This document shows, in pieces, positions 19,282 to 44,452 of a stretch of DNA of 64,000 nucleotides. This stretch comes from Sulfurospirillum sp. UCH001 (GTDB lineage: Bacteria > Campylobacterota > Campylobacteria > Campylobacterales > Sulfurospirillaceae). The stretch is from assembly GCF_001548035.1 (NCBI RefSeq), contig NZ_AP014723.1:2232001-2296000 (forward strand), given 5' to 3'. The translations under genes were made by a program, and so were the position numbers. Under the pieces are notes generated by a model, which was not told the origin of the DNA, did no database searches, and was given only the letters and a program-made list of their open reading frames with translations. Each line of letters begins with the position of its first letter. Position 1 is the first letter of the stretch.

Positions 19282-20553
19282 TCAAGGCTCTAAAAGTGCA
19301 TTTTTCCCCATACGTTTCAGTGGAAGTAGGATATATCCTAGCACGGTTCGTTTACCCGTGATGATATTTACCCCTGCTTCCATACCTGGCATGATAGGAA
19401 GATTTGGTCCTAGTCTGTCTTTGGATGCTTTCACTTTGATGGCGTAAAAAATTTCGCCTTTTTGTGTAGTGAAACTATCGGGGCTAATGGAGACAAGCTC
19501 GCCTTCTATCATGCCATAACGCGCATAATCATACGCCGTAATTTCGATATTTGCTTTTTGCCCTACCCAAATACGTCCACGATCTGAGGCTTTGATGTTC
19601 GCCTCAATCATCAAACCCTCTTCTATTGGCGTTATCTCAGCAACTTTATCACCTGCTTTGATGGTTCCACCCACTGTATGAAAGTAAAGGACATTGACAA
19701 TGCCGTTCACGGGTGAGGTAATTAAAAGGCGGTTAGCCCTATCAATACTCGCTTCACTTTGCTGTGAGAGTTGTGAAAGCTTGACGCGCACATCTTTAAG
19801 CTCATTCAATAATTTAGATTGAATGTCTGAACGTGTGGAACCAAGCTCATGAATCGCCTCTTGGTACTTGCCTTGAACAACGGGAACTTGGTTTTTTACT
19901 TCATCTACTTGGGTAATGAGGTTTTGTTTTTTGCTCATCTCTAAAAGATACTCTTTGCGAGAGCCTGCACCTGATTTCATCAATTGTTCTGCAATGGTTG
20001 TGTTTTCAACAGCCATATTCAGTTCTAAAGCCAAGTTCTTTTGACGTATCTCAAGCTCTTTAAGCTCATAAGAGCGTTGTTCAACTTTTTGAGAAACACC
20101 ACTCAGTCGCTCTGTACTATTTTGGCGCTCACTTTGAAAAATCTGCATCTCATTGTGGGCGATTTGAGGGTATTCATCGACAAAAGCTTTATCAAAAACC
20201 AATTCTTTGTTTTCTATCAAACTGACCAAACGTTGCTCTTTTGCCTGTAAAGAGACACGGTCCAAATCTTTCCCTCGAATATCTGCTGTAAAAAATGCTT
20301 GATTCAGCTGATAAATAGGCTGATTGACCATAACATGATCGCCCTCTTTGACCAAAATCTCAGAGACGATGCCTCCTTCTAAGTGTTGCAACACTTTTGT
20401 CTGCCCAGAAGGTACAATTTTGCCATTACCTCGCACAACCTCGTCGATTTCACTGAGTGCTGACCAGATCAAAAATACAAGGAAAAAAAGTGCAATGGGT
20501 GCAACTGTCACATAGTAATTCCATCGCTTTTCAATCATCATTTTACTTATCAT
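19282..20553 (-). CDS. HlyD-family membrane fusion protein of type I secretion (LapC type)
   Basis: A 423-residue periplasmic adaptor linking the ABC exporter to the TolC-type outer membrane channel. One N-terminal membrane segment (about residues 15-36) is followed by a split biotinyl-lipoyl domain (VLQHLEGGIVSEILVKEGD near residue 50), a long coiled coil (about 140-260), the second lipoyl half (TSPVNGIVN) and a beta-barrel region (about 290-410). Length fits LapC/HlyD adaptors. The start overlaps the exporter stop by four bases. It is the last gene of the 25-kb adhesin operon. Confidence 0.93.
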   Translation of the reverse strand: MISKMMIEKRWNYYVTVAPIALFFLVFLIWSALSEIDEVVRGNGKIVPSGQTKVLQHLEGGIVSEILVKEGDHVMVNQPIYQLNQAFFTADIRGKDLDRVSLQAKEQRLVSLIENKELVFDKAFVDEYPQIAHNEMQIFQSERQNSTERLSGVSQKVEQRSYELKELEIRQKNLALELNMAVENTTIAEQLMKSGAGSRKEYLLEMSKKQNLITQVDEVKNQVPVVQGKYQEAIHELGSTRSDIQSKLLNELKDVRVKLSQLSQQSEASIDRANRLLITSPVNGIVNVLYFHTVGGTIKAGDKVAEITPIEEGLMIEANIKASDRGRIWVGQKANIEITAYDYARYGMIEGELVSISPDSFTTQKGEIFYAIKVKASKDRLGPNLPIMPGMEAGVNIITGKRTVLGYILLPLKRMGKNALLEP

Positions 20554-28600: not shown

Positions 28601-31600
28601 CCCGCTGCTGTATTGGAGCCACCATCTAAAACATCGCTTCCACCATATCCCTCAATGGTATCATTACCTGCACCACCATTAATCGTATTGACGTTTGAGT
28701 TGCCATAGAAAATATCATTATAAGCAGAGCCCGTGATGTTGTTTACACCCGTAATAATATCATTGCCTCGATTAGTTGAAATGATTTGGTTAATCGCTAT
28801 TGTAAGATTTGTTGCAGCACCTTCGGTTATACCATCCAGTGAATAATCTAACCAGCTACTGGTCGCTCCTGTGCCATTGATGGTATCATTACCTGCACCA
28901 CCCACAAAGGTATTATTCCCACTGGAATCAGTTAAAATATCATTGCCTGCACCACCAATAAGGGTATCATTGCCAAGTCCACCATTGAGATAGTTATTGC
29001 CTGAACTACCTATAATCGTATCGTTTCCACTACCACCAATGAAATTTTCCACATTGACAATCGTGTCATTATCGCCGCCTACAATCGTCACTGTTGCAAC
29101 GGTAGAACCCGCTAATGTCACGCTGATATTATTGGCAACCGCAGTATAATCAACCGTATCTGTCCCTTGACCACCGTCGATGACATCACTACCATCATTA
29201 CCGCTGATAGCGACTATCGTATCGTCACATGCTGTACCATAAGAGCCACCATCATCACCAAAAATAGTATCGTTACCCAAGCCGCCATAGATGGTATCAT
29301 TTCCTTCTCCACCATAAAGGGTATTGCCACCATCACTCAGCGTTGGAGCAGCACTATCACCATAAATTTTATCATTTCCTGCACCACCATAAATTGTATC
29401 AACACCGTCCGCGCCATAAAGCGTATCGTTGCCATCATTGCCATTGATAACATTGGCGAGTGCATTGCCCGTAATCACATCGTTGTATCCACTGCCCGAT
29501 ACATTTTCAATCATATCTGTAAAATTAACCGTTCCAGCACCACTGGTTGCTTGATTGGACGCTAGTGTGCCCATATTAACACTCACAGCAGAGCCTGCGT
29601 AGTAAAACGAAATCGTATCGGTACCTGTTCCACCGGTTAGCGTGTTTGTTGCTGTTGCGTCTGCAAGTTCAAAGTAATCATTGCCAGTACCACCGTCTAA
29701 AATATTGGTACCACTTTCACCGTTTAAATAGTCATTTCCGCTACCGCCATACAAGGTATCGTTATTATTGCCACCCCACAAGCTATCGTTGCCAAGACCA
29801 CCGTAAATGGTGTCGTTACCATCTTGTCCGTATAAAGAGTCATCACCTGTTTGGATGCCATCAACGGCTACGCCACTGTTATCATCACCGTAAATAAGAT
29901 CATTACCCGCACCCGCTAAAATGGTGTCATTTAAAGCGCGACCTACAAGGATGTTAGCATTCGCGTCACCCGTAATCGTATCGGCAAAGTTTGAGCCTGA
30001 GACATTCTCAACTTCGTAAATAACATCAGTACCAATATCAGCTCCACTGGCATTATTGGTGGCAAGATTAACGATAATGCCTGCTGTTGAGGCATTGATA
30101 AAATCAACCGTATCACCTTTGGTTTCAAGTGTCGTTCCTCCATAAATGGTGTCATTGCCAGCACTCATCATAAACCAGTCATCACCACCATTACCACGTA
30201 GGTCATCCGCACCTATATTGCCCGTTAAAGTATCGGCGTAGTTAGAGCCTAAAACACGAGAGAAGCCACTGAGAGTATCACTGCCACCTGAACCATCTGT
30301 TGCCGTTCCTGTAGTGAGATTGACCGTAACACCTGCGGTATCCGAAGTGTAGTCAACCGTGTCCCAGCCCGCAAATACGCCAACACTGTCTCCGCCAACT
30401 AAAAAATCATTTCCGGCATTACCCGCAATCGTATCATCACCCACCCCACCGTAAATGGTGTCGTCACCAAGCCCTCCACTGATCGTGTCATTGCCACCCC
30501 AGCCATAAAAAGTATTGGCATTGGCATTACCCGTTATCGTATCACCATAACCTGAGCTACCATAAACAACCTCAACCGTATTGGTAATAATATCCGTACC
30601 TTCGCTCCCGCTTTGTGTGCCTGTCGTTAAATCGCCGGTGTCATTAGGGTTCAGTGGGCTTGTCGAAGTAATCACAACTTTTGCCGTTGCATTGCGATAA
30701 TCTGCGATATCGATTCCACCACCACCATCTAAGGTATCATCACCTGTTCCACCTACAAGGATATCAGCGCCTGCCGCACCATAAAGGGTATCATTGCCTA
30801 CACCGCCAATGAGCGTATCGCCACTGTCACCAGCATAAAGCGTATCAGAACCAGCACCACCATCGAGGGTATTGTGGCCGTCACTGGTGGTATGGGTATT
30901 ACCTACATTGTCGCCGTATAAAACATCATTGCCATCGTTGCCAGAGAGTTGGTCGGAACCGAGATTTCCATACATGGTATTGTCCATACCATCACCATAA
31001 AGCGTATCGCCTCCGGCATAATTACCGCCATTGATATTTTCAATATTTTGGATACTTTCGGCATTGCCATAACCATCATTGAGCACTTGAAGTGAAGAAA
31101 GATTGACATTAATGGAGGCAGTTGTAATAGCACTAAAATCAACGGTATCGATGCCAATACCACCATCTATGGTATCAACGCCTTGCGATGTAAAAATGGT
31201 ATCATCCCCACTGCCACCTTTGAGGATATTAGCATTGGCATCACCATAAATCGTATCATTACCCGATCCACCCGTGATATTTTCAATTTCGCTAAACGTG
31301 CTTGCTGTGGTATTCACAGTCCCAGCAACCATATCAATCACTAACGCAGAAGATAGATCTGAAAAATCTAATGTATCGCTACTTCCTGCAATGTTGCCAC
31401 TGCCATTATCACCATACACTTTATCGCCATCAATAGCCCCATAAATAAGGTCATTGTCGCTACCACCAAAGATCGTATCAGCTCCGCCACCGCCACGAAG
31501 TGTATCGTTACCCGCTTCACCGTACAATCTCTCGGCTAAAGCACCGCCATTAATCGTATCATTACCAGCACCCGTGTAAATAGTCGATAAAACGCCTGTA

Positions 31601-34600
31601 TCCGCACCTGTGATACTATCTGCACCTGAACCTGATTTCAAAATTTCAATTGTTGTTGTATCGATGATGTCGGAGCCATCGCCATTGATAACCCCTGCAT
31701 TTAAAAGAGCCGTAATCGCAATATTATTCGTCACATAATCAAGCGTATCAATCCCCGTTCCACCAAATATCGTGTCATTGCCGGCATCTCCACGCAATGT
31801 ATCGCCAGCACTACCGGCGTACAAGGTATCGTTTCCAGCACCACCGGCAAGTATGTTTTGGCTATCGGCGTGAATATTGCCAATAGTATCGCCATACAAT
31901 AGATCATTTCCTGTGCCACCGGTGATTTTGTCGCTTCCAAGATTACCATAAATCGTAATGCTTGCATTTCCACCGCTTAAGGTATCAGCCCCACTACCCG
32001 AATCAAAAATTTCAATTCCATTTAAAATATCTGCGCCAACAGCGCTATTGCTTACATTCGTACCAGAGGTCAATGTAATGTTAGATGCAACAGCAGTATA
32101 GTCGATGCGATCCATCGTTCCTGTATCTGTACCGCTTGCGTTGCCACCATAATACACATCGCTGACACCATCTTGTGTTCCCACAATAACATCATTACCA
32201 TCGCCACCGTAAAGCACATCACTTCCAGCACCGCCGTCTAGCGTGTCATTGCCCTCATTACCATACAATTTATTGGCAAGTCCATCACCTACAATGGTAT
32301 CATCAACTTTTGAGCCTTTGACATCTTCAATGTTAGCGATGACATCATCATTTCCACCCGCAGTACCTACAATAACCGTTGTATTGGTAGCGCCATTTAA
32401 CGTGACATTAATAGCCTCAGAGATCGCACCATAATCAATGGTATCTTCTCCACTACCGCCATCTAGAGTGTAGTTTCCTGTATCAAATGTGGCATTAACT
32501 GTAAATGTATCAGCACCCGCACCTGTTTTAATTATTTCGATATTTTGGAAGCTGTCTTTATTGGCCGAATTACTCGTTTGGGCAATTGTTTGAGCACCCA
32601 TATCTACCGTTAGATTCGTCGATGCAGTATATGCACTATAATCTGCGGTATCTCCAATGGTATGAGCTCCGCCGTCTAAAAGATCTCCGTCTAAATTTCC
32701 GCTAAGGGTATCATCACTCGCTCCACCGAAGAGGGTATTGACAACACCACTTTTACCAACGATGGTATCGGAAGCGGTTGTCCCTACAACATTTTGTATG
32801 TTCGAGAGGGTATCAAAGAGCGTTGGTGTACTGTTGAGATAGGCTTTTCCTGTTGAAAGGTTAATCGTAGAAGCAGAAGCAAACGTACTGTAATCTACGA
32901 TATTTCGCTCACTAATAGCTCCACCATCGATGTAGTCACCATCAAAACCGCCAAAAATAGTGTCGTTACCCAATCCACCAAGGAGCTGATCCGCACCACC
33001 ATTTCCTTTGAGTGTATCATCTCCTGCACCACCGGTTAAGACGTTTGCATTCGCATCACCTACAAGTGTATCGGCTTGCGCTGTACCAATGATATTTTCT
33101 ATGCCATACAGTGTATCGGTTCCATCTGTAACGGCATTTCCTATGACCTGCCCGCTAAGCCTTGTTAAGTCTGCATCTATGGACGTAATGGAAGCGGAAT
33201 AGTCTGCAGTATCAGTCCCGCTATCATGTGTTGCATCTGTACCGCCAATAAAAGTGTCATTGCCAGCACCACCAATAAAGGTGTCATTGCCAGCCCCTCC
33301 GATAAAAATATTATCCGTACTATTGCCTATAAATTTATCGTTTCCACTACCACCACTGATCTGTTGAATGTTTGCGAGGGTATCCGAATTACTTGCTGTA
33401 GGTGTTGTACCGGTTTGGTAAATATTTTTCGATGATACAGAGAGATCAACAGTGAGATTTTGGGTACGCGCACTGTAATCAGCAAGGTTCATGCCATTGC
33501 CACCATCTAAGACGTCGCCATCTAAATTACCTGTTAGCGTATCATTGCCATCAGCACCATACAAGGTATTAGAGAGTCCACTCCCTCCTTTTAGGGTATC
33601 ATTGCCACTGGTGCCATACACCTCCTCAATACTATAAAGAGTATCGGTTGCAAGTGTGGCATTGCTTGCATTTAAAAGAGTGACGGTATTGGTAGAAAGA
33701 TCAGCCACAATATGATCAATACTACTAAGAGAAGAGTAATCCACTCGGTCTTTGTAGCTATCGCTGCTCACACCTAGTTCAGCACCATAATAGATATCAT
33801 TGCCCAGTGTTGCGATGAAGGTATCATTGCCACCCATACCAATGAATGTATCCGAATTTGAAGAACCTGTCATTGTGTCATTATAGAGTGAGCCTTTTAC
33901 AATCTCTATGCTTGTGAGGGTATCCGTTCCACCTAAACCGTCCATGACAGTGTTCGTGGTGAGATTAGCGATAATCGCATTGGACGCAGAGTAGTCTGCC
34001 GTATCTTGTCCACTACCACCATCTAAGAGATCAGCACCTATCCCACCAATGAGTGTATCATTCCCTGCCCCACCATAAAGCGTGTCATCACCACCCATAC
34101 CATTTAAGATATCATTATCGCCTCTACCATCTAAAATATTGACATCATTGCTACCCACAATGGTATCTTTGTTGGTTGAGCCATACACATTTTCAATCTC
34201 TATTAATCTGTCAGCATTACTACCACCCAGAGTAATGTTTACAGAAGCACTAATATTGCCATAATCAACACTATCTACACCGCTTCCACCATCAAGGGTA
34301 TCACCATCTAAGTAGCCATAAAAGATATCATTCCCATCTTTTCCTAAGAGGGTATTGACACTTCCTTGCACACCAGTAAGCGTATCTGCACCGTTTGAGC
34401 CAATCACATTTTCAATGGAAATGAGCTTATCGGTATCATTGCCAGAGACAACGCCATCTCCTGTGGCGAGATTGACACTCACACTTGAGGCATAGCTATA
34501 ATCAACCCAGTCACTTCCACTTCGTCCATCAAGAGTATCATTGCCTCCAAGTCCACTCAGTGTGTCATTGCCTAGACTTCCGGTAATGGTATTAACGAGC

Positions 34601-37131
34601 GCATTACCGATGAGCGTATCGCCCAATGTGGAACTTGAACCAATGATATTTTCAATATTATAAAGCTGATCGTTTCCCTCTCCACTAGCGGTATTAAGAT
34701 TGAGGTTTACATAGACTTTAGCATTTGAGGAGCTAAAATCAATCGTATCAAATCCACTTCCGCCATTGATGTAATCGTCTCCCGAACCGCCTTGCAAGAT
34801 ATCGTTTCCTCCATAAATGGTTGCTAATGTTACACCATTATCGACGATATATTCTACACTTTGATCTGACGCAACTACGAGGGTAGATGTACTCATAATA
34901 GGAGCAGCATCACCATAAATCTTGTCATTTTCTGAGCCACCACTCAAAATATCATCGCCGCCATACAATGCAGAAGGGGTACTGCTGTCAATCATCATAT
35001 CGCCCACAATGGTGTCTGCGCCAGCGCCTCCTGTGATCGTATCATCATTTGGAGTAGTAGACGTTGCAGAATGGTTGTATCCACCAATCAGTAAGTTATC
35101 TGAAGCATCGCCATTGATTATATCTTTGTATTGTGTACCCGCGACATTTTCGACATTTTTAACAATGGTTGTTGAAGATGAACTGCCTATATTTCCTAAA
35201 GAGCCATTTGCAGAATTGTTCAGTGTAATGCTAATTCCATTAGAATTATTGGAAAAATCGATCGTATCGGTATTGTCACCACCATCGATCATATAGTCAT
35301 CGGTACTACCGATTAACCAGTCATTTCCTGCACCACCATCTAACCAATCAGCGCCACCTCGCCCTTCTAATGTATCATTTCCTTCACCACCGGAGAGTTT
35401 ATTTGCACTTGCGTCTCCACGAATCGTATCATTGTACTTTGAGCCTATCACATACTCAATATTGCTTAATGTATCACTAATCGTTCGTGTCTCTTCCCCT
35501 GTTGTGACATCACTGGTCGTATCATAAACGGTTTTTCCGGTTGCAAAGCCACCTTGTAAGTCAACGATAATACCCCTAGCATCATTGGCATATTGCACTC
35601 CTGTTGCAGGATCAATCGCAGCACCGTTAGCAAATAAAAAATCATCGCTATATTTTGTGACAAACGCATAGCTAATCGTATCAATGCCATCGTTTCCGTT
35701 AAGAATATTATTGCCAGAACCACCACTGAGGGTATCATTTCCAGCATTACCATCAAGCGTATCGTTACCGATATTTCCATAAATGGTATCATTGGATAAA
35801 CCGCCTAAAACGGTAGAGTCATATTTTGAGGTATAAACGATGTTTTCATTCGGTGTCGTATCAATCACAAAGCCTGAAGCGTAACGTCCATTATACGTAT
35901 AGTCTGATTCGCTGTTGACATCTTTTACGATGACACCAACATCTTTGTAGGTTGTTAGTGTCGTCAACTCAGGCGTCACGACTTCAGCTTGTTTACTTGC
36001 AGGGACATTGGAGATATCAAATTGTGAGGTCAATGAGACCTTCATAAGATAGTCAAAATTAAGAGCGATATTCGCAGAACTTGGCTCATAACGAATATAA
36101 AATTCAATCACTTCACCACCATCGGTTGCGGTTGATGTAAAACCAGTACCCGAAGATAAGTTCCATCCACCATCCACGGAATTAGCAGATGTAAAATCAG
36201 AATTTAGAATTTGAAATCCATTAGAAAGCCCTAAAATAGAGATTTGCTCGATGGCAAATCCAATAGGCTGAGAAACACTTAAGCGTACAAGTTTGGTAAG
36301 ATATGTTGCGTTTACCAAGCTAGGGTTATCCGCAGTAATCACTGTAGGATAGGCTTCATTACGATAATCTAATGTTTCTGCCTGAAATTGTGCCGCAGCA
36401 GATTTGCTTACATTACCCAAAGCGCTTCCCGTACCACCTAATACGGTTTTGATACCTAACGAGAGAGAGTCTGAGCTTTTAATTTGGTAAAAACCAATAT
36501 CAAAGGACAAAGCAGCAGAAACATCCGCCACGTTATCTTTGCTTTTACTCTGATCATCGGATGAACGATGTTTGTCTGCACTGTCATCTATGCTTGGATT
36601 ATTGCTTGTATAGTTTGTAACGGCTTCTTGTAGATATTTACCAGAACTTGTCTGTTTATTAGCGTCATCGGCTGGTTTAATAAAAGGTTGCGGATCAACA
36701 TAATAAGCATTATAATCATTACTAGGTGCATCATCTTTTTTTGCATGTTCATTTTGCTGTGCATTTTGTTTTTCATCATGCAAAGAAACAGGACCAGAGA
36801 CTAAAACAGAATTTTGTGGGGCTTGTCCAACGTCTTGTATTTTATTGAGAATTTGCTCAATATTCATCATCATGCCGCCAGGCAATTTAATCACAGGCGC
36901 ATTGCTCTCAAACGCAAGCATTCCAAGCGATACAAATGTAATTTGCCCACCATTAGGGAGTGTCGCTATCACATCGCCACCCACGATTTGCATTTTCGCT
37001 TTAGAGAGGTCTACACCAAGAGAAAGCTCATCTCCTGGGCGTAAAAAGAGATTGATGTTTTCGCCCGCTTGAGGGGCAAATTTAAGCGCCGTACTGCTTT
37101 TACCGTAATTAACTTCTGCTGTATTTGCCAT
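22672..37131 (-). CDS. Giant RTX-type adhesin (4,819 residues)
   Basis: An unusually large secreted protein. Residues 1-130 form a conserved-looking N-terminal module of the kind thought to plug or retain T1SS adhesins in the outer membrane, followed by a charged, Gln/Asn/Lys-rich linker (about 130-200) and a non-repeat domain (about 205-420). RTX calcium-binding repeats of type GGxGxDxLxG fill residues 435-3060, interleaved with a VDYS..I.VNL..G spacer. Two short RTX blocks recur near 3570-3600 and 3730-3755. The last 1,060 residues are Thr/Ser/Asn-rich beta repeats ending in a hydrophobic tail, the expected T1SS signal. I see one cysteine (GTACDD). It is flanked by its exporter genes. No stop or frameshift interrupts it. 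Confidence 0.93.
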   Translation of the reverse strand: MANTAEVNYGKSSTALKFAPQAGENINLFLRPGDELSLGVDLSKAKMQIVGGDVIATLPNGGQITFVSLGMLAFESNAPVIKLPGGMMMNIEQILNKIQDVGQAPQNSVLVSGPVSLHDEKQNAQQNEHAKKDDAPSNDYNAYYVDPQPFIKPADDANKQTSSGKYLQEAVTNYTSNNPSIDDSADKHRSSDDQSKSKDNVADVSAALSFDIGFYQIKSSDSLSLGIKTVLGGTGSALGNVSKSAAAQFQAETLDYRNEAYPTVITADNPSLVNATYLTKLVRLSVSQPIGFAIEQISILGLSNGFQILNSDFTSANSVDGGWNLSSGTGFTSTATDGGEVIEFYIRYEPSSANIALNFDYLMKVSLTSQFDISNVPASKQAEVVTPELTTLTTYKDVGVIVKDVNSESDYTYNGRYASGFVIDTTPNENIVYTSKYDSTVLGGLSNDTIYGNIGNDTLDGNAGNDTLSGGSGNNILNGNDGIDTISYAFVTKYSDDFLFANGAAIDPATGVQYANDARGIIVDLQGGFATGKTVYDTTSDVTTGEETRTISDTLSNIEYVIGSKYNDTIRGDASANKLSGGEGNDTLEGRGGADWLDGGAGNDWLIGSTDDYMIDGGDNTDTIDFSNNSNGISITLNNSANGSLGNIGSSSSTTIVKNVENVAGTQYKDIINGDASDNLLIGGYNHSATSTTPNDDTITGGAGADTIVGDMMIDSSTPSALYGGDDILSGGSENDKIYGDAAPIMSTSTLVVASDQSVEYIVDNGVTLATIYGGNDILQGGSGDDYINGGSGFDTIDFSSSNAKVYVNLNLNTASGEGNDQLYNIENIIGSSSTLGDTLIGNALVNTITGSLGNDTLSGLGGNDTLDGRSGSDWVDYSYASSVSVNLATGDGVVSGNDTDKLISIENVIGSNGADTLTGVQGSVNTLLGKDGNDIFYGYLDGDTLDGGSGVDSVDYGNISASVNITLGGSNADRLIEIENVYGSTNKDTIVGSNDVNILDGRGDNDILNGMGGDDTLYGGAGNDTLIGGIGADLLDGGSGQDTADYSASNAIIANLTTNTVMDGLGGTDTLTSIEIVKGSLYNDTMTGSSNSDTFIGMGGNDTFIATLGNDIYYGAELGVSSDSYKDRVDYSSLSSIDHIVADLSTNTVTLLNASNATLATDTLYSIEEVYGTSGNDTLKGGSGLSNTLYGADGNDTLTGNLDGDVLDGGNGMNLADYSARTQNLTVDLSVSSKNIYQTGTTPTASNSDTLANIQQISGGSGNDKFIGNSTDNIFIGGAGNDTFIGGAGNDTFIGGTDATHDSGTDTADYSASITSIDADLTRLSGQVIGNAVTDGTDTLYGIENIIGTAQADTLVGDANANVLTGGAGDDTLKGNGGADQLLGGLGNDTIFGGFDGDYIDGGAISERNIVDYSTFASASTINLSTGKAYLNSTPTLFDTLSNIQNVVGTTASDTIVGKSGVVNTLFGGASDDTLSGNLDGDLLDGGAHTIGDTADYSAYTASTNLTVDMGAQTIAQTSNSANKDSFQNIEIIKTGAGADTFTVNATFDTGNYTLDGGSGEDTIDYGAISEAINVTLNGATNTTVIVGTAGGNDDVIANIEDVKGSKVDDTIVGDGLANKLYGNEGNDTLDGGAGSDVLYGGDGNDVIVGTQDGVSDVYYGGNASGTDTGTMDRIDYTAVASNITLTSGTNVSNSAVGADILNGIEIFDSGSGADTLSGGNASITIYGNLGSDKITGGTGNDLLYGDTIGNIHADSQNILAGGAGNDTLYAGSAGDTLRGDAGNDTIFGGTGIDTLDYVTNNIAITALLNAGVINGDGSDIIDTTTIEILKSGSGADSITGADTGVLSTIYTGAGNDTINGGALAERLYGEAGNDTLRGGGGADTIFGGSDNDLIYGAIDGDKVYGDNGSGNIAGSSDTLDFSDLSSALVIDMVAGTVNTTASTFSEIENITGGSGNDTIYGDANANILKGGSGDDTIFTSQGVDTIDGGIGIDTVDFSAITTASINVNLSSLQVLNDGYGNAESIQNIENINGGNYAGGDTLYGDGMDNTMYGNLGSDQLSGNDGNDVLYGDNVGNTHTTSDGHNTLDGGAGSDTLYAGDSGDTLIGGVGNDTLYGAAGADILVGGTGDDTLDGGGGIDIADYRNATAKVVITSTSPLNPNDTGDLTTGTQSGSEGTDIITNTVEVVYGSSGYGDTITGNANANTFYGWGGNDTISGGLGDDTIYGGVGDDTIAGNAGNDFLVGGDSVGVFAGWDTVDYTSDTAGVTVNLTTGTATDGSGGSDTLSGFSRVLGSNYADTLTGNIGADDLRGNGGDDWFMMSAGNDTIYGGTTLETKGDTVDFINASTAGIIVNLATNNASGADIGTDVIYEVENVSGSNFADTITGDANANILVGRALNDTILAGAGNDLIYGDDNSGVAVDGIQTGDDSLYGQDGNDTIYGGLGNDSLWGGNNNDTLYGGSGNDYLNGESGTNILDGGTGNDYFELADATATNTLTGGTGTDTISFYYAGSAVSVNMGTLASNQATSGAGTVNFTDMIENVSGSGYNDVITGNALANVINGNDGNDTLYGADGVDTIYGGAGNDKIYGDSAAPTLSDGGNTLYGGEGNDTIYGGLGNDTIFGDDGGSYGTACDDTIVAISGNDGSDVIDGGQGTDTVDYTAVANNISVTLAGSTVATVTIVGGDNDTIVNVENFIGGSGNDTIIGSSGNNYLNGGLGNDTLIGGAGNDILTDSSGNNTFVGGAGNDTINGTGATSSWLDYSLDGITEGAATNLTIAINQIISTNRGNDIITGVNNITGSAYNDIFYGNSNVNTINGGAGNDTIEGYGGSDVLDGGSNTAAGDTVSYYNENKILVTLNDSGTSTVGVWNGSNYTTEVDTISNFENISGSNSGGDFISGNASDNTLWGNVGNDSLYGGGGNDYIDGGSDNDTIAGGTGADTILGGNGNDILRGGETAYNNGSADGFSDTLYGNAGDDTLYGMLDGDTLYGGDNATSFNGNDVINYSELGVGNAVYIDINATAGASFAQLVGTPTIKDTIYGFNTVIGSNGNDTIVGNVNNNSISSGAGNDVIYFSPVAALTSAVTAGSDSVDMGSGDDTLFTFISELTSSDYINGSTGNDTITFRDGGVINDVTKFQNISNIEFVQFADVANTISLDTTKLNDVKLIGGATTDIFNYAIANFDAHDSIDGGGGNDTLSFTTAGTLSDAMLSSISNIEKIQLANGTNTVTVDVSNLEGGIATLYAGTSGTNTYNYSLSNLTNADKIVGGGASTTDIIQFLDAGTVADDTRFSGLSAIDQVKLANGTNTFNIGTNEAQLSNVSIIGNSGIDTFVYTSAALTDGTANAKLVGSGGNDILQITGNTSVVNANLAGFSGINTINLGSYTGSISLGANATTMGLTTIDAIGNTGTLSIDASAMSTSVTINATNANGSTYKGSSVAGDILNINNALTSQDASSITGIETINVNANTTFTGDLTGVTNLTIVSGKTLNVDASAVSSDTATIANAGTLAINNTNGATLSGLTMTGAGALQINGTSSSDTITLNATMTSYTGTITIDGGAGDDILIGSTKNDTILGGTGNDTLTGGAGTDRLDGGEDSDVYRFASASDIAADIITDTGTVGSDIIFMDAAGDFSLAGLSVSGIEGLKFYQGVGTQTLTISKAQASLYTDFTGYTGATDTVAVTGVTSSLDMNSGKTYTNIAKVSIDASSASSSVTLTGVSSVSNTITGGSGNDTIIAGTQIDTLAGGSGNDTFQINSNYLTSADTISDTSGLDTLEITNAATITDAQLTNVTNVEILKLAAGSTVTLGTEANNSGNGFTTVNVSAGGANTINNSTINNLSVIGGAGTDTLNISGGVAINASNLSGVENLNITSGTSAMTGTLSAATTATIASGATLTTTVPSTTLSGKTIVINGSLSATGVNGTDVSHVTLNSGGTASFTLTSGGTLDASVAGFSKDVNGLLKIYGNTGNETITIDSAKFTNAGDLISDSSGTDTLVVTGSSAIDFTKISGMEVVDLTNYNGTTLTTNNTTGETIKIDSAYTSINAGGGTDQLYISANSVDLSGATLSNIESYYVASGATLTIKASDVSGKVVTGAGNLVVLHSADSSYDLSGIATTGTKTLEFSATSTFTGNLGTVSTISVDSGVTATMSAASLNGKTATLSGAGALNITAGATAAANNFANLTNSISGEVTLNVTSAIDLTTATLGTALDKLNTSVAVTLSGTQANMFASYTGSGNITIEVGTTSVDLSSKTVAGYNGIFTFNDGTGVQTLTGTMNNDTYNVDNASVNIFASFGDDTINILSSLGSNLSGGIDGGGGVDVLNINKSGLTFNTSNITAVETINVNQSATFTGTLSATTTTIASGVTLSADASVISGKTINGTGILNVTNLDATLNADFSTVAGATTLNVDWSGTGTYTGNLTNVDTLNISSGTMRVTDDILASHTTTGTGALIVDVDSNLAFTWSNSAASLNETLNFTGGTTYTQTLTNVDAITLASGVSVDISGATIGASTTSVTGAAGSESLTMNSSFLHTVASVDLGAASDTLGVTGNTALTATDFGKIQNVETLDLSSYTGAVDLTSTSGITQLSTGSGVNSTTIDYAMNITDSGGTDTLYTTATMDLSSNSISGIETLSVASGTTTRLDYDDLGVGKIATLTGSGEVTVNGSNSMNISSENIAGLGSDKLGITGTAGDDNLVLDFSQLDKIHFDGGTAGTDTVSFTSSVVASGEIFDTNAFSNIETLDISSLGLSGLGLTIDANALKSFTGDTNELTLLISASSSQDSYIHLSNETTYQSITSLTTGDHILDNGLMLHVQTV
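27950..35840 (-). repeat. Main RTX repeat array inside the adhesin gene
   Basis: Dozens of nonapeptide-type repeats (GGxGNDTLxG) alternate with longer spacers that end in IENV.GS..(N/D)DT. At DNA level this gives recurring GGTATCATT(G/T)CC motifs on the plus strand. The array is imperfect, so units have diverged and are not recent copies in general. Confidence 0.9.
33245..33298. repeat. 27-bp near-perfect tandem repeat in the adhesin gene
   Basis: Two adjacent 27-base units differ at only two or three positions and encode FIGGAGNDT twice. This is the clearest sign of recent unit duplication in the RTX array. Confidence 0.7.
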
Positions 37132-37169: not shown

Positions 37170-38135
37170 TTAAATCATTAAAATCAATAATGCAACCACA
37201 AGACCTAGTGCTGCGGTATTAATTCCCGTAGAAACTTTTTTCGTAATTTTTGGGAGACTATTTTCTTTGGTTAAACTCTCAGCAACTAAAATGACACCTA
37301 CTTTTTTGCCCTCAATGTTCAATAATGGTTTTGCCAAAATAAAATAGTCACTATTCAACATATATTTATTTGCAATAACCTCATCAACATTGATTCCTTG
37401 AATCTTTTGAAGAAATTCACTATCACTTTTGGATTGAACGCTGATTTCATCTTTACCAACACGTTGATGTTTGTATGTTTGTAATTTTTTCATATCTAAA
37501 AAATCACGATTGAGTAAAATTTGAAAAATTTTTCCGTTAGACTGATAGAGGTCAAAAAGAAAATCAGCGGTACGTTTCACTTCTAAAATACCATTCTGTG
37601 TCGGATACAACGCTCTTAGATATACCTGTCCATCATCATACTCAATCCCACTGTAAGGTTGGTTGGTCGCCAACACTTTACGTAAACTCTCAGTATCATA
37701 AGACTCTGATGAGATAACTGGTTTTGGCGAAGATGACGCAATTTTTACCAAATTTTTATTGTAGAGCTCAATAATCACATTTGATTTGGCGATGACTTTT
37801 AAATTTGCATCCAATGCATTGAGTTTGTCCATCATTGCCGAAGTATTATTTTGCATGTTAAGAGCTGCCATAAATTCTGGATTTGCGAGTAAAAGACCAC
37901 CTATGACCTCTAGATTAAACAAGGAATCATTAATTTTTGTGTCTAACTCTCCAAAGTAACTACTATGGCTGGCTTCGTACAAAATTTTCGTCCCTCTTTG
38001 TGCCATAGAATTTAAATAGTACATTGTTCCAACAATGCCTAAAAGAGCGATGGCAGTAATCGTTGTAAACCAAAGTCCTTTACGTTTTTTCAACTTTTCA
38101 AAAAGTGCCTGTAATTTCAAAATTAAGCTAAACAT
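37170..38135 (-). CDS. Membrane-anchored Cache-domain protein without cytoplasmic output
   Basis: A 321-residue protein with a short cytoplasmic start, a membrane segment (about residues 22-42), a large periplasmic region (about 45-300) resembling a double-Cache sensor (IASSSPKPVISSES, YLRALYPTQNG, KPLLNIEGKKVGVILVAES), and a last membrane segment at the very C terminus (about 304-321). No kinase, GGDEF/EAL, HAMP or chemoreceptor domain follows. It sits 38 bases upstream of the adhesin and inside its operon. A sensory or retention role in adhesin export is inferred; it could instead be a receptor that has lost its output domain. Confidence 0.85.
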   Translation of the reverse strand: MFSLILKLQALFEKLKKRKGLWFTTITAIALLGIVGTMYYLNSMAQRGTKILYEASHSSYFGELDTKINDSLFNLEVIGGLLLANPEFMAALNMQNNTSAMMDKLNALDANLKVIAKSNVIIELYNKNLVKIASSSPKPVISSESYDTESLRKVLATNQPYSGIEYDDGQVYLRALYPTQNGILEVKRTADFLFDLYQSNGKIFQILLNRDFLDMKKLQTYKHQRVGKDEISVQSKSDSEFLQKIQGINVDEVIANKYMLNSDYFILAKPLLNIEGKKVGVILVAESLTKENSLPKITKKVSTGINTAALGLVVALLILMI

Positions 38136-38168: not shown

Positions 38169-39950
38169 TTAACATCTTCCTCCTAAAGTCTCTCTTCCTT
38201 CTCTCAATTGCTCTAATTGCTCTTTTAGTTTCATCATCACTGTATGCCAATTTCCGTGTTCTTCTTGCCTCAAAAGAGTTAAGCTACGATACCAAGGCGC
38301 AGTATCTCCTTCTTGTCCCCAACGCCAATCCGCAGGATGTGGCACTAAAACAAAACCTTTTTTATCAAGAGCGCCACACAAATGTGCCACGGATGTGTCC
38401 GTGGTTATGACCATATCTAAATGGTTGATAAGAGAAGCCGTTTTAGCAAATGTTGTAAGCTCTGCGCTATGGTCGATAATTTTTTCTTCCAACCCTTGCT
38501 GTTTGATTTCATCTGCGTCTTGCCCTACTTGCAGCGAATGCCATACAATACCTTCACAATCAAGCAGATCTTTGAATCTTTCTAACCCCACATAACGTTC
38601 ATGGTGCCCTTTATGCGTATTACTTCCACTCCACACCAAACCAATGTGATAGTGTCTAGGCTTAAAATCATACGAATACTTTTGCGAGCTCATGAGATAC
38701 GGAAACGTACTTGGGATCGTCTCACGTGTTGTGCCCAAATAAAAAGGTGCTGAGAGTAAAGGCAAGTAATAATCGTGCTCAGGAATGGCTTCTTCTTCAC
38801 TATAAATTGCTTGAATTGCGGGTATGGATCGAAAAAGCTCCATCAACTCTGTTCTTGTGCGCACTAAGACTCGAGCACCCAATTTTGCCAATAATGGTGC
38901 ATAACGTATAAACATAATGTTATCGCCATAGCCTTGCTCGTTTTGCAACAGTAGCGTTTTACCAACCAGACTCTGACCTCGCCACATTGGTGTTTTATAA
39001 GGTTGCGTTTTCACAAGCAACTCACTCATTTTTAACCGATGTTCATACCTTTTCCATCCACCACGATAATTTCCTAAAGAGAGTTCTATGAGTGCAACAT
39101 CAAAGTTAGCATTGGTATGATTTGGATTAAGCGCTAATGCTTTTTGATAATAAGGCATTGCTAGAGCATAATTCTTTTTTTCTTTATAAATAGCACCTAT
39201 GTTACTATAAGCATCTGCAAAATCTGACTGCAATACAATTGCTTGTTTAAGTGATGCTAACGCTTTATCTATTTGTCCAAGGCTACGCCATAAATTGCCA
39301 AGATTATTAAAAGCAGCAGCATCTTTTGAATTGATTTTAAGAACATTCTCATACGCTCTAAGTGCGTTATCACTCTCTCCTAACTCTTTATACGCGACGC
39401 CTATGTTATTGTACGCTTGCGTTTTTGAAGGGTCAATCGCTATGGCCTTTTGATAGGCAATAAGCGCATGAGGATAATTTTTGATAGACGTATAAAGATT
39501 TCCTACAATAAGATGCGCTTCATATTCATTCGGAAAATCCCGTACCATAGAAGATGCAATCTGAAGAGCATCGGAAAACTGATGAAGATGACGCAACAAA
39601 TCAATCAATGCCAAATAATCGCTCAATTGATGCCCTAAAGCAATAGCTTTTTGAAGCATATCTGCGGCTTTTTGATGGGCATTATGGAGACGATACAACG
39701 AAGCGAGATTACTGTAAAACGGCACATAAGCATCATCATGGCTCAAGCCCACTTTGAGAATAGCAAAAGCATCTTCGTATAATTTTGCACGTTTATACGC
39801 AACGGCAAGATTATTCAAAACCCGAATATGGCTCTTTTTTTCCAAAGGGTATGTTAATGCTTTTTTATAGCATAGAATAGCAGAGGGATACTCCAAATCT
39901 TTTAGAAAAATATCTCCCGTTTCTATTATAGGTAAAGCCATAGATGTCAC
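38169..39950 (-). CDS. TPR-repeat glycosyltransferase, candidate adhesin-modifying enzyme
   Basis: A 593-residue cytoplasmic protein. About eight to nine tetratricopeptide repeats occupy residues 1-300 (AYNNIGVAYKELGESDNALR and AFNNLGNLWRSLGQIDKAL are typical). The C-terminal 290 residues match the GT9/GT41-like domain often fused to TPRs, with LLLQNEQGYGDNIMFIRY, GLVWSGSNTHKG and TTDTSVAHLCGALD. The likely start is GTG at 39950 behind AAAGAG. TPR-glycosyltransferases modify Ser/Thr of proteins or act in glycan synthesis. Its place in the adhesin operon suggests it glycosylates the Ser/Thr-rich adhesin before export; this is inference. Confidence 0.88.
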   Translation of the reverse strand: MTSMALPIIETGDIFLKDLEYPSAILCYKKALTYPLEKKSHIRVLNNLAVAYKRAKLYEDAFAILKVGLSHDDAYVPFYSNLASLYRLHNAHQKAADMLQKAIALGHQLSDYLALIDLLRHLHQFSDALQIASSMVRDFPNEYEAHLIVGNLYTSIKNYPHALIAYQKAIAIDPSKTQAYNNIGVAYKELGESDNALRAYENVLKINSKDAAAFNNLGNLWRSLGQIDKALASLKQAIVLQSDFADAYSNIGAIYKEKKNYALAMPYYQKALALNPNHTNANFDVALIELSLGNYRGGWKRYEHRLKMSELLVKTQPYKTPMWRGQSLVGKTLLLQNEQGYGDNIMFIRYAPLLAKLGARVLVRTRTELMELFRSIPAIQAIYSEEEAIPEHDYYLPLLSAPFYLGTTRETIPSTFPYLMSSQKYSYDFKPRHYHIGLVWSGSNTHKGHHERYVGLERFKDLLDCEGIVWHSLQVGQDADEIKQQGLEEKIIDHSAELTTFAKTASLINHLDMVITTDTSVAHLCGALDKKGFVLVPHPADWRWGQEGDTAPWYRSLTLLRQEEHGNWHTVMMKLKEQLEQLREGRETLGGRC

Positions 39951-40215: not shown

Positions 40216-41592
40216 TTAGAAACCAAAATGCTCAATTAATTTTCCTTGCTTAGCTAACAACGAAAAATAATCAACCACACGCGATTTCTCACTGCGCAAT
40301 TTTTCAAGCTCCGCATTATTGACTTGTCTTTGCGCTTGCAATAATGTCACCAAATCTTGACTGGAAAGTCTAAATTTTTCCCAATATGCATCAGCCATTT
40401 TATTACTTGCGTCAATTTCTGTTGTTAATGTATCGATTGTTTTTGTATTGGTCTGAACGGAATTAAAGAGTTTTTGGGAATTCCACTTGGTATCTTGCTT
40501 GGTATATTCAAGGTTATACACTAAAGCAGACGCTTCACTCATAATACGAGCTGCTCTTGCTTCTGTTTTACCACCATCATAAAGGTTAAGGCTAAACGTC
40601 ACTTCAGCGATAAAATCATTATTCATCCCCTCAGATGGACTGGCACTTTTGAGCATATCATCACGAAAACGTCTTGAATTTGTCATCGAAAAATCAATCT
40701 TCAAACCTTGGCTTGCGCTGTTGATGAGTAGGTCTTTTTGTTTGCTTTGTATTTGCGTTTCTAAAATATTGACATCGGTATTGAATTTTTTAATCTGATC
40801 ATAGACTTCATCAAATGGTTTGAGATTGGTTTGAAAGTCTGTTTCAAATGGCGTTAAATCTTCCAGTTTTGCGTTGGTTAAAAATTCATAATAATCTTTT
40901 GCATTATTGTACGAAGACTCGGTATTGATAAGTGCTGTTTTTGCATTGGAAACACTTGCTAAAATAGAATTTTCATCGCCAACCGTAGCAGCTCCAAGCT
41001 CTCGTTTGATTTTGACAATATCAAGAATTTTGAGTAATTTATCGTAATTATTGCGATTGACCTCTATGGCCATTTTCCCATACACAACGCTAAAATAGGC
41101 ATCAATTACTTTGATGATTTCCTCTTCAAGTGTTCCTTTTAAACGCTCTTCTTGCTCTTTTTTCGTAATGTAGGTTTTTGCGACCGTTTCACTGTGTTCT
41201 CCTGATGAGAAAAGGTTATAGGAGGTTACAATGTCGCCTCGTGTTTGGTTGTAGTACTGATCGTCAAAACCTGATGATTTTTTATGGGTATTGCCTGAGA
41301 CGATATCAACTTTTGGTAAAAAATCGCTATACGCTTCTTTGGTTCCATGCTCTGCTTGAAAAATACGTTCTTTTGCCTGCATGACCCTGTAATTCACCTT
41401 CATCGCCGTAATGACTGCTTGCTTGAGTGTCACACGATTGCTGATTGCTTCACCATCTTTTTGAGCAAGAAAGGTATTCAGTTTTGCGATACTATCGTGT
41501 TCATTTTCACTGGTATCCGCATTTACAATCGTACACGAAGCTATCATCCATACAAAAAAGATAAAAATATTGTGAGAAACACGTAAGAACAC
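40216..41592 (-). CDS. TolC-family outer membrane channel of the adhesin exporter
   Basis: A 458-residue outer membrane efflux protein with an N-terminal signal peptide (about residues 1-25) and the two-fold TolC/OEP arrangement of long helical hairpins and beta strands. VTLKQAVITAMKVNYRVMQA near residue 54 and the C-terminal LVTLLQAQRQVNNAELEKL are typical. The start is GTG at 41592 with AAGGA six bases upstream. It completes the type I machine with the ABC exporter and HlyD protein at the other end of the same operon. Confidence 0.92.
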   Translation of the reverse strand: MFLRVSHNIFIFFVWMIASCTIVNADTSENEHDSIAKLNTFLAQKDGEAISNRVTLKQAVITAMKVNYRVMQAKERIFQAEHGTKEAYSDFLPKVDIVSGNTHKKSSGFDDQYYNQTRGDIVTSYNLFSSGEHSETVAKTYITKKEQEERLKGTLEEEIIKVIDAYFSVVYGKMAIEVNRNNYDKLLKILDIVKIKRELGAATVGDENSILASVSNAKTALINTESSYNNAKDYYEFLTNAKLEDLTPFETDFQTNLKPFDEVYDQIKKFNTDVNILETQIQSKQKDLLINSASQGLKIDFSMTNSRRFRDDMLKSASPSEGMNNDFIAEVTFSLNLYDGGKTEARAARIMSEASALVYNLEYTKQDTKWNSQKLFNSVQTNTKTIDTLTTEIDASNKMADAYWEKFRLSSQDLVTLLQAQRQVNNAELEKLRSEKSRVVDYFSLLAKQGKLIEHFGF

Positions 41593-41601
41593 TCTTATTC
41601 C

Positions 41602-42231
41602 TTATTTGACATCAATTTTAAGATAGCCGTATTCAAATTGTTTGTTTTCGTTTGGCTTATAATTGATAGAAATTTTATTTTTTAATTGAGGTATATTTTC
41701 TAGGCTATTTTTCAAACTTAACACTCTACCCAATGAAACTTGTCTTGCTTGCGTTGAACTAATCAGCTTTTGCGAATCGCCCACATTGATAGCAAAAGTC
41801 GCATTTGGATGTGTTTTAAGCACTCGCTCCATCGCTTTACTGACATGTGCAATATCTGATTTATTGACAAAATATTCGTTATTTTTGAAGACAATTAAAA
41901 AATCAGACTCTTTAAAATCTACTTTCGTGGACTGATCGGCTGCTTTAGTGAGTGTATTTTCTCCCACATCACTCGCACTTGTTGCATTGCTCTCTTGTGG
42001 TTTTTGAAACGAAACAAATGTTACTTTTGGCGCTGTTTCTTCTTTAACTTCCACAGAAGGCTCTTGTGTCACAACAGGAGCAGGAAGATTTTTAGAGTTA
42101 AACTGCATGTAATAACCAACATTCACAAACATGATGAGTACGAACAATAATAAAACTAAAATAACAGAAGAGAAAAGATCTACATAAGAGATAAAGGGAT
42201 TCATCTCTTCGGGATTAGAACCTGCCGCCAT
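41602..42231 (-). CDS. MotB/ZorB/SiiA-like periplasmic stator protein
   Basis: A 209-residue protein with one N-terminal membrane segment (about residues 17-40). NPFISYVDLFSSVILVLLL places an aspartate (Asp18) where MotB Asp32 and the ExbD/TolR aspartate carry protons. A proline- and glutamate-rich linker (about 48-110) leads to a C-terminal domain (about 120-209) that resembles a degenerate OmpA-like peptidoglycan-binding fold (TQARQVSLGRVLSLKN). It follows the MotA-like gene by ten bases. Salmonella SPI-4 encodes a comparable pair (SiiA/SiiB) beside its giant adhesin. An ion-driven stator role is inferred. Confidence 0.85.
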   Translation of the reverse strand: MAAGSNPEEMNPFISYVDLFSSVILVLLLFVLIMFVNVGYYMQFNSKNLPAPVVTQEPSVEVKEETAPKVTFVSFQKPQESNATSASDVGENTLTKAADQSTKVDFKESDFLIVFKNNEYFVNKSDIAHVSKAMERVLKTHPNATFAINVGDSQKLISSTQARQVSLGRVLSLKNSLENIPQLKNKISINYKPNENKQFEYGYLKIDVK

Positions 42232-42241
42232 CCACTAACCC

Positions 42242-44452
42242 TTATTGTTCATTTGAATTTTTATGAAAAAAGGAACTGAAAAAGCCCTTGATCTCACTAG
42301 CAACGCCACCGCTCTGTAATGCATGCGCTTTGTCCAATCGTGCAATAATCTCCTCAATGGTTTTGAGTGATGCATTCATCTCTAAAAGTTTTTGATTGGT
42401 TTGCGCCATTTCTTGACTTAACTGACTGACAATGTATGCTTGTTTTTCCTGCTCAGTTTGATTATAAAGTGTTTCAAATGCCTTATTTTGCTCCAGCCCT
42501 TCGCGATGTGTTTGCTCTAATACATCAAGCTTCATTCCTAATGTTTCAAGGCGTTTATTCTCATCTTCAAATGCTTTTTGATACGTTTCATACGCCATTT
42601 CAGAGTGTTGGAGTAACGCATGCGTGGTTTGTGTCTCAAGATTGAATGATGCATGAAGCTTTTCAAAATTGTTATAGAGCGCTTGCTTGCCCTCAGTGTA
42701 CTCGTCATAAAAACGCTCGTGCGTTACAAAAAAGGATTTTAATGCATCATACTGTTGATGCAAGGTTTGCTCCATCGTCATTGCAACATTCAACGCCTCA
42801 GCTGATGCGCTGTTGGCTTCTGCTTTCAACGCTGTTTGCACACCCATTAAGGCCTCTAGAGTCTCTTGCGATACATTCAACACAGAAGCAATGCGTTCAG
42901 TCATACTAAACATACTTTTATGGTTTTCTTGCATATCTGTATGGTTAAAAATAACACGCTCATTCAATGTTTGCAAAGCATAAAGTTCTTGTGACAATTG
43001 CTCTTTAAGCAGATTCATTTGTGTATCAAAATGAGCATACGCTTTACGTGTTTCACCAAACTGCTCTTCATTCAGCGCCATACTCTTTAAGAGCACTTGA
43101 TGACTGGCTTCACACTGCACAAAAATCTGCATAAGGCTTGACGCCATATCTATAAAGCGATTAAGCATAGTGTCAAACTTTTGAGTGTGTTGTTCAAGTT
43201 GAAGTACATTTGCCTCAGCATGCGCATTGATGTTTTGAGTAAGCGTATGCAATGTATCGATGAGCTGTTGATGTGAAGCGTTGTGTTGGGCTTGGTCTTG
43301 TTGTTGCAAGGCAATCATGGTTTCATTTTGTTGTTGTTCTACTTCAAGCTTATGATTGACGTTTACGACACCATTATTGACGGCTAAAAGAGTATTGGCG
43401 GTTTGGTGAAGAAGCTGATTTTGTGTCTCAAAAAGTGCATAAAGTCCTGTTTTATCCGCTTCTTGTTTTTTCTCTTTTTGGCTATCTGCATCTTTGGTGT
43501 ATGCAACAAACTGATCAAATTTTTGCACCTGATTTGCCTGTGTGAGGGCAATCGTTTGAAACGTATTGGAGTGAGCTTCCATAACCGTTTTCATGGAAGC
43601 GAGTGTTTCAGACATGGCATGGAAATTTTCATTGGATTTTGTTAATTTGGCAATTTCATGTGTGAAGTGATTCATCTGCTCCAAAAAGATATCAATAAAG
43701 CTTTTGCGCTGTTCTGGAAGTTCGGAAACGCTTCCTGTTGTTGTTCTACCAAGTGCTTCTGGCGCGATATCAATAATTCTGTCTTTAAGCCAATCCTCAA
43801 CACCACTGATCAGTGTGTCTTGTGAACGAAAAAGAATATAACCATTCATTCCTAAAATAACCGCGCACACAACACCAAATAAAGAGGCGCCAAAACCTAT
43901 CGCCATACCTGAAAGTGGACCAGAAAAATCTTGCATGATTTGTTTGATATCAACATCACCATTGAGCCCCAAGATAATTTGCCCCATGCTATCAATAGCT
44001 TCGACCAAGCCAACAAACGTACCAAGAAGACCCACAAGCATGGCGGTATTGACGAAAAAGCTGGTATAGGATTTTTGTTTACTGAATTTACTGTTGAGCC
44101 ATTCGATGATATTACGGGATTCTTCTTGTGTGAAGAGCATCTTTTGCTGACTCTTGCGTGTCTTAAGCATATGCGCGATGTTTGCAGGAAGAATAGAGTC
44201 AATGCCTTTAAGGTAAAACTCATATCCTGTCTTTTTGTACGCCAATGCACCAAATGTTCCACCCAACATCATAATGCCAAATCCACTTGCAGTCTGGTAC
44301 AAAGCACCTACTGCTAAAAGTCCTAAAATAGCACTACTGAAGATGACTGTCGCCATAAAAAAGACACTCAATAAATCAATATTGACCCATACAACGTAAA
44401 TAATAAAAAGCCAAATAATAAAATATGCTTTTAAAATTTTAATGCGCTTCAT
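42242..44452 (-). CDS. MotA/TolQ/ExbB-like channel protein with very long cytoplasmic coiled coil
   Basis: A 736-residue protein. The first 240 residues hold about four membrane segments. The segments near 135-155 and 185-215, with SFFVNTAMLVGLLGTFVGLV and GPLSGMAIGFGASLFGVV, match the MotA/TolQ/ExbB proton-channel core. Residues 250-710 are Gln/Glu/His-rich and strongly coiled-coil, ending in a short basic tail. This tail is far longer than in flagellar MotA and recalls ZorA of Zorya systems, but no zorC/D-like genes are nearby. It is the first gene of the adhesin operon. With the MotB-like protein it probably forms an ion-driven stator acting on adhesin secretion or retention. Confidence 0.87.
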   Translation of the reverse strand: MKRIKILKAYFIIWLFIIYVVWVNIDLLSVFFMATVIFSSAILGLLAVGALYQTASGFGIMMLGGTFGALAYKKTGYEFYLKGIDSILPANIAHMLKTRKSQQKMLFTQEESRNIIEWLNSKFSKQKSYTSFFVNTAMLVGLLGTFVGLVEAIDSMGQIILGLNGDVDIKQIMQDFSGPLSGMAIGFGASLFGVVCAVILGMNGYILFRSQDTLISGVEDWLKDRIIDIAPEALGRTTTGSVSELPEQRKSFIDIFLEQMNHFTHEIAKLTKSNENFHAMSETLASMKTVMEAHSNTFQTIALTQANQVQKFDQFVAYTKDADSQKEKKQEADKTGLYALFETQNQLLHQTANTLLAVNNGVVNVNHKLEVEQQQNETMIALQQQDQAQHNASHQQLIDTLHTLTQNINAHAEANVLQLEQHTQKFDTMLNRFIDMASSLMQIFVQCEASHQVLLKSMALNEEQFGETRKAYAHFDTQMNLLKEQLSQELYALQTLNERVIFNHTDMQENHKSMFSMTERIASVLNVSQETLEALMGVQTALKAEANSASAEALNVAMTMEQTLHQQYDALKSFFVTHERFYDEYTEGKQALYNNFEKLHASFNLETQTTHALLQHSEMAYETYQKAFEDENKRLETLGMKLDVLEQTHREGLEQNKAFETLYNQTEQEKQAYIVSQLSQEMAQTNQKLLEMNASLKTIEEIIARLDKAHALQSGGVASEIKGFFSSFFHKNSNEQ

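Follow-up and report, generated by a model that had tools for sequence, protein, structure and literature searches.

In a 64,000-nucleotide stretch of the genome of Sulfurospirillum sp. UCH001, which we call the window, a closely packed type I secretion operon begins with the gene for a 736-residue protein that joins a MotA-type membrane core to a long cytoplasmic tail. The protein belongs to a conserved gene module, its MotB-like partner holds a conserved D18 and R169, the tail has a coil period and repeat of its own and ends in an invariant tip, and the whole descends apart from ZorA of the Zorya defence systems. By analogy with SiiA and SiiB of Salmonella, we think it reasonably likely that the protein is the ring (A) subunit of a SiiAB-like, 5:2-type proton motor serving the type I secretion of an RTX adhesin.

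The secretion operon and the membrane core

Eight minus-strand genes are packed closely down to position 19282, with the gene for the MotA-like protein (42242..44452, ATG start) as the first. The MotB/SiiA-like gene (41602..42231; 209 residues) starts 10 bases past it and encodes one transmembrane helix with D18, a long linker and a periplasmic domain with R169. Then follow genes for a TolC-family outer membrane protein (40216..41592; 458 residues; Pfam OEP, E 4e-36; TIGR01844, E 2.5e-28, below its cut-off), a TPR protein (38169..39950; 593 residues; Pfam TPR_1, E 2.3e-39, with a weak C-terminal Glyco_transf_9 match at E 0.0011, below cut-off), an orphan dCache protein (37170..38135; 321 residues), a giant RTX-repeat adhesin (22672..37131; 4819 residues; HemolysinCabind repeats at E 2.3e-21 in a 700-residue N-terminal piece), an LssB-type ABC exporter with a C39-like domain (20550..22664; 704 residues; TIGR03375, E 1.3e-201, just below cut-off; Peptidase_C39, E 2.2e-8) and a HlyD-type periplasmic adaptor (19282..20553; 423 residues; TIGR01843, E 1.1e-98, over cut-off). 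Gaps from stop to start are mostly under 40 bases, the sole long one, of 265 bases, preceding the TPR gene. Upstream of the first gene there are 6 promoter-like matches compared to 3.0 expected, which is not evidence of function. An earlier note, made from the sequence, had placed the MotA-like gene beside type I secretion genes and not defence genes, and both the profile matches of its neighbours and the loci of its relatives bear this out. The plus strand of the window holds two adjacent, very similar lyases of the fumarase/aspartase type (44782-46212 and 46395-47801; Lyase_1 and FumaraseC_C), and after them come a DcuA/DcuB transporter and an asparaginase; the lyase pair looks like the product of a recent tandem duplication within an aspartate/fumarate cluster.

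The MotA/TolQ/ExbB membrane core takes up residues 1-231 (43760..44452, minus strand), within which the Pfam family MotA_ExbB (PF01618) covers residues 100-202 (E 5.1e-5; 23.5 bits against a cut-off of 22.9). When considering an alignment of 27 cores from the family, all match PF01618 at a threshold of E up to 1, and the motif GLLGTFxGL (L142 to L149) is invariant save for one variable position; the invariant columns include G141, L142, G144, T145, F146, G148, L149, P179, G186 and S190. The final strongly hydrophobic segment of the protein stops near residue 210. Flagellar MotA, TolQ and ExbB share this four-helix channel family, PF01618, with the MotA-like protein and differ from it in their partners. 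They also lack a long tail, as the note had stated and as is seen in the copies from the same genome, where the open reading frames give 258 residues for flagellar MotA, 152 for ExbB and 195 for TolQ (assigned by neighbouring frames). A structure search with an AlphaFold2 model of the whole MotA-like protein gave no match at E of 0.001 or below, and the best 50 matches listed for this poor model include no chain of the MotA family.

Residues D18, in the sole transmembrane helix, and R169, in the periplasmic part, are invariant in all 20 aligned MotB-like proteins, and we take D18 to be the ion-carrying aspartate of the MotA/TolQ/ExbB proton channel family. For the periplasmic part Pfam gives OmpA only, weakly and in 3 of the 20 members (best E 0.018), and neither SiiA nor any peptidoglycan-binding protein was found among solved structures, whether the single MotB-like sequence or the 20-row profile was used.

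The long cytoplasmic tail and its tip

Behind the core lies a predicted cytoplasmic rod, at about residues 246-713 (42314..43717, minus strand), with room for about 12 repeats of 39 residues; its delineation draws on periodicity, autocorrelation and a low-confidence model. The tail (residues 246-714, 469 residues) has 11.5% glutamine, 10.2% glutamate and a single proline, and its hydrophobic residues recur at about 3.54-3.545 residues, with a power of 24.6, where the 99th percentile of shuffles is 8.0. The phase of the coil is kept along the tail, the signal being weakest in the 80-residue windows from 566 and 606, with a drift of phase in the last. The AlphaFold2 monomer, built from 8 alignment rows, shows the tail as helix at low confidence (mean pLDDT 52, pTM 0.22), and the prediction that the tail is helical rests mainly on the periodicity. 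Together with the Pfam match, composition and periodicity confirm the note's description of a MotA/TolQ-type core followed by a long helical tail rich in glutamine and glutamate.

The same period is found throughout the longer-tailed relatives. All 11 long-tail proteins (that of the window, those of nine other loci and that of L026, a Sulfuricurvum record) have periods of 3.535-3.550, each above its shuffles, and 25 short tails fall at 3.515-3.575, where resolution is coarse; 24 of these exceed the 99th percentile of shuffles, the one that does not being L094. As a control of the method, three chemoreceptors, one of them from the window, came out at 3.455-3.495, close to the 3.5 of a heptad, though the periodicity of the window's own chemoreceptor is weak (power 4.6-4.7). 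In the long tails autocorrelation is highest at lags 78, 39, 117, 195, 7, 234 and 156; apart from 7, one heptad, these are all multiples of 39. The mean at lag 39 is 0.248, compared to 0.125 (s.d. 0.017; maximum 0.180) in 2000 runs of a simulated sinusoid of period 3.545, a null that does not model the shared descent of the tails; the 11 are related to one another and hence do not make 11 independent tests of the repeat. Its clarity is uneven among them, for instance with only 0.07 at lag 39 in L069, and in short tails under 400 residues lag 39 stands at 0.13 and is not the leading lag.

The repeat is visible only in the autocorrelation and in a fitted cyclic profile, and self-BLAST of nine tails gave no exact internal repeats. 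The cyclic 39-residue profile, a descriptive fit with no null model behind it, needs five phase jumps for the window protein and none for S. cavolei and its near relative. Thirty-nine residues over 11 turns give 3.5455 residues per turn, which is the observed period, and a unit of four heptads and one hendecad fits this length. None of the open-licence PubMed Central literature that we found, a body that leaves subscription papers and outside preprints uncovered, describes a rod of 39-residue repeats or the campylobacterial module, so that the design of the rod is undescribed as far as open-licence searches show.

At the end of the tail lies a C-terminal tip with the motif KGFFSSxFxK (residues 720-736 and stop; 42242..42295, minus strand), as seen both in an 8-row alignment and in the 11 long-tail proteins. 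In the eight aligned rows the sole invariant columns past residue 259 are G723, F725, S727 and F729, and the tip KGFFSSxF, with small changes, is found in 11 of 11 long-tail proteins, whereas the 25 short ones all lack it. That the tip is fixed while the rod varies suggests that docking takes place at the end of the rod. The MinD protein of the same genome ends in KKGLIATLKGIFK, resembling the tip, and the C-terminal end of MinD targets the membrane. Given hydrophobic moments of 0.30, 0.02 and 0.42 for the three tips computed, a MinD-like membrane targeting by the tip is only a guess.

Relatives of the module and its proposed role

Residues 1-313 served as query against 398 genomes of the order (E 0.001) and gave matches in 55, of which, on our reading, 45 hold the MotA-like secretion family and 10 hold weak unrelated matches of 148-178 residues. 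The 45 comprise 10 genomes with long-tail frames (522-857 residues), 34 with short-tail frames (361-455 residues) and one with a fragment; within the genus the family is present in 10 of 24 genomes. Tail length after the core runs from 124 to 621 residues across the family, with 279-621 in the longer-tailed members and 124-213 in most relatives. For comparison of loci we took the other nine long-tail ones and 25 of the 34 short-tail ones (leaving out G068, G132, G154, G174, G214, G242, G249, G257 and G291). In all 34 of these loci the MotA-like gene has the MotB-like gene on its own strand at a distance of 0-45 bases, and a TolC gene nearby and a dCache gene are both present; ABC, HlyD or RTX genes lie within the stretch in 32, and the two loci without them come from short contigs (7.9 and 15.6 kb). 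The dCache gene, too, is a same-strand neighbour of the MotA-like gene in all 25 short-tail loci, at 7-33 bases. Several long-tail relatives (L065, L066 and L070) have the adhesin or ABC gene split into several open reading frames, which may be decay or assembly error.

The length of TolC differs with that of the tail. It is 450-479 residues in eight of the nine long-tail loci (the ninth is cut), 541-575 in four loci with intermediate tails, and 761-1361 in 20 of the remaining 21 short-tail loci, one again being cut. Both of the long TolC proteins tested (short-tail loci L072-L096) carry a C-terminal SPOR domain, a domain that binds peptidoglycan, so that the long TolC of short-tail loci seems, from its sequence, to be an outer channel carrying its own peptidoglycan-binding domain. 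This trade-off tracks phylogeny and is therefore not independent evidence of a functional exchange. A GGDEF-EAL gene follows TolC in short-tail loci (Pfam, 2 of 2 tested; also annotated on an Arcobacter plasmid). Plasmid searches for relatives outside the phylum gave one Arcobacter plasmid, and a scan of viral contigs gave no relatives. On that plasmid (p121_Kiel_2759, L163) a short-tail module lies beside transposase genes, with the dCache, MotA-like and MotB-like genes annotated as hypothetical and the ABC gene annotated in two pieces.

The nearest described counterpart is the SiiA/SiiB pair of Salmonella SPI-4, where, as in the window, a MotB-like and a MotA-like protein accompany TolC, HlyD, an ABC exporter and one giant adhesin. 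The excerpts of PMC12607715 and PMC6272769 available to us report that SiiA and SiiB form a proton channel that is dispensable for secretion and needed for adhesion, invasion and retention; those of the former add that SiiB contacts the ABC protein, SiiF, in two-hybrid assays, and describe SiiA as a 210-residue protein whose single transmembrane helix is joined by a disordered linker to a domain that binds peptidoglycan through arginines. The 209-residue MotB-like protein of the window, in which R169 is invariant, shares this plan. There are differences: the substrate is an RTX-repeat adhesin in the window and a BIg-repeat one in SPI-4, the window cluster has orphan dCache and TPR genes unlike SPI-4, and the very long repeat-built rod belongs to the window MotA-like protein, whose likeness to SiiB is known from gene setting and not from sequence. 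A similar module might also exist in the Bfs operon of D. vulgaris. There DVU1013 is TolC and DVU1017/1018 are the ABC and fusion proteins (PMC11784015, in the passages seen), and DVU1013-1018 are jointly called a type I secretion system (PMC13090378, likewise in part); DVU1014-1016 might be a MotA/MotB-like secretion module of this kind.

The match of the gene set to that of SiiAB suggests a motor that controls retention of the adhesin. In such a motor five MotA-like chains would surround two MotB-like chains, protons would pass by D18, the periplasmic domain of the MotB-like protein would grip peptidoglycan, and the motor, once engaged, would turn and so set the retention or release of the adhesin held by TolC. 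The five tails would bundle in the cytoplasm into a single rod, some 70 nm long at 0.15 nm for each of 468 residues, in which coiled-coil repeats of 39 residues and 11 helical turns follow one another up to the conserved tip. There the rod would dock, with the ABC exporter or the membrane as its most likely partner. Force or state could be transmitted through the rod between the motor and the exporter. The earlier note had suggested that the tail may reach the ABC exporter or sense the adhesin chain in the cytoplasm, and the SiiB-SiiF contact speaks for this only indirectly. The signal of a periplasmic ligand probably reaches the motor through the dCache protein, which has two transmembrane helices and a periplasmic dCache-like domain; its AlphaFold2 model (pLDDT 75, fair) has no output domain and its Foldseek matches are dCache/PDC sensor domains, such as those of DctB and the chemoreceptor Tlp3 (the best of these 3e4p, E 1.3e-5), while Pfam gives only a sub-threshold match (E 0.0075).

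LapA, LapD and LapG form another system in which, as in the window, a giant adhesin is exported by a type I system, and the GGDEF-EAL gene of the short-tail relatives matches LapD at E 9.1e-33, far below cut-off. The window operon contains no LapD or LapG. Release of the window adhesin by a LapG-type protease seems unlikely from its sequence, since its first 400 residues hold no [TAP]AAG site and the genome's one LapG match sits 1.37 Mb away; in a sample of 60 genomes, five of the seven that bear the family have no LapG match. Some campylobacterial LapG-type systems lack the motor module, which shows that such exporters do not in general need the motor.

Two other accounts of the protein accept its secretion setting. 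The rod may be a passive spacer or cytoplasmic anchor near the exporter, with the motor working in the periplasm alone, as in Tol and Ton, which we regard as rather unlikely. It would agree with a tail that is poorly conserved except at its tip and whose length past the core ranges from 279 to 621 residues, and with the 124-213 residues that suffice in most relatives; however, the tip is invariant and the repeat of 39 residues holds its register for several hundred residues, which suggests more than mere bulk, and mutations in the tail of ZorA, though another lineage, abolish function (PMC11890865, as far as the text was available). Less probable still is that the MotA/MotB-like pair forms an ion channel whose task is to sense pH or the proton motive force, with neither rotation nor mechanical work. 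The presence of an orphan dCache sensor in the module is in keeping with it, as is the response of SiiE to energy state: uncoupling lowers its retention at the surface and external acidification raises it, and in the excerpts of PMC6272769 the authors leave open whether the proton force is used or sensed. Nevertheless, the well-studied relatives with this core are all treated as motors.

Comparison with ZorA

The tail had been called ZorA-like in the earlier note, and with respect to its length and its position behind a MotA-type core this holds, ZorA also having a long C-terminal cytoplasmic coiled coil; the likeness fails for the coil period and repeat, in which 14 of 14 ZorA tails differ, and for descent as given by a tree of the cores. 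All 14 ZorA tails, each above its shuffles, have periods of 3.625-3.68, with no overlap with the 11 long secretion tails (Mann-Whitney P 2e-5, relatedness ignored). Individual values are less firm: the ZorA of L128 peaks at 3.67 and not 3.625 with another tail start, and the peak of L129 is unstable in sub-sampling (5th-95th percentile 3.485-3.76). Autocorrelation in ZorA peaks at the hendecad-type lags of 11 and 18 and stands at -0.052 at lag 39. A straight helix has about 3.63 residues per turn, and since the long secretion tails have 3.5455, a left-handed supercoil is predicted for them and a nearly straight bundle for ZorA. Cryo-EM has found ZorA tails to bundle as pentamers (PMC11890865, in the portion consulted). 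The ZorA proteins of L128, L154, L156 and L158, from genomes of relatives, are 1120-1170 residues long; their tails extend some 1000-1055 residues past the core, about double the length of the other ZorA tails compared.

In a maximum-likelihood tree of 54 core segments the 11 long-tail proteins form one group (100/100), which adjoins four proteins of intermediate length and lies within the short-tail secretion family, while the 14 ZorA and one other row fall on one side of a 98/97 branch with the secretion family opposite; long branches (flagellar MotA, ExbB and two ZorA) leave the deeper order unsure. The nesting of the long-tail proteins in the short-tail family, apart from ZorA, is most simply explained if the rod arose separately within the secretion family, and long cytoplasmic rods thus probably arose twice on the MotA-type motor. 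The genome of the window has a further pair (L130; region G000:C1:1126857-1128014), with a MotA-like protein of 385 residues (L130:2857-4014) and a MotB-like protein of 358 (1781-2857); it lies on the ZorA side of the tree, and similar frames occur elsewhere in the genus.

Several matches could be taken to mean that the operon is a Zorya (ZorA/ZorB) anti-phage system or fragment that lies by chance beside secretion genes. Three ZorA models of PADLOC match the core (best ZorA3, E 1.1e-7), among solved structures the core profile comes closest to the ZorA chain 8vvn (696 residues, E 0.0044), and the tail is of similar length. The PADLOC matches, however, are confined to residues 133-210, whereas the genuine ZorA of G065, which adjoins ZorB and ZorC, matches at E 8.9e-71 over residues 35-483. 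The MotB-like gene reaches only E 0.0028 against a ZorB model. With no homologue of ZorC, ZorD or ZorE in the operon, a separate clade, a differing coil and a secretion context in 32 of 34 loci, this reading is largely refuted and we consider it very improbable.

For the SiiAB-like motor that we favour, the comparison raises a further, tentative possibility: that it is a second, independently evolved long-rod 5:2 proton motor. Its rod might be a left-handed shaft of tandem 39-residue units, where that of ZorA is nearly straight, with a tip resting on a secretion ATPase or the membrane, so that a giant adhesin would be controlled by torque or stalling relayed over tens of nanometres; the length of the rod might vary between species by steps compatible with the coil, like a modular shaft. 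Whatever its function, a long cytoplasmic rod is no signature of Zorya, and a defence-gene finder that leans on tail length would be misled, whereas coil period and repeat length cleanly separate the long secretion tails from those of ZorA. Why ATP-driven adhesin export needs a proton-driven SiiAB is stated to be unclear in the portions of PMC12607715 seen by us, and for this question the MotA-like family offers a natural series, in which core, partners and setting stay constant and the tails range from 124 to 621 residues.
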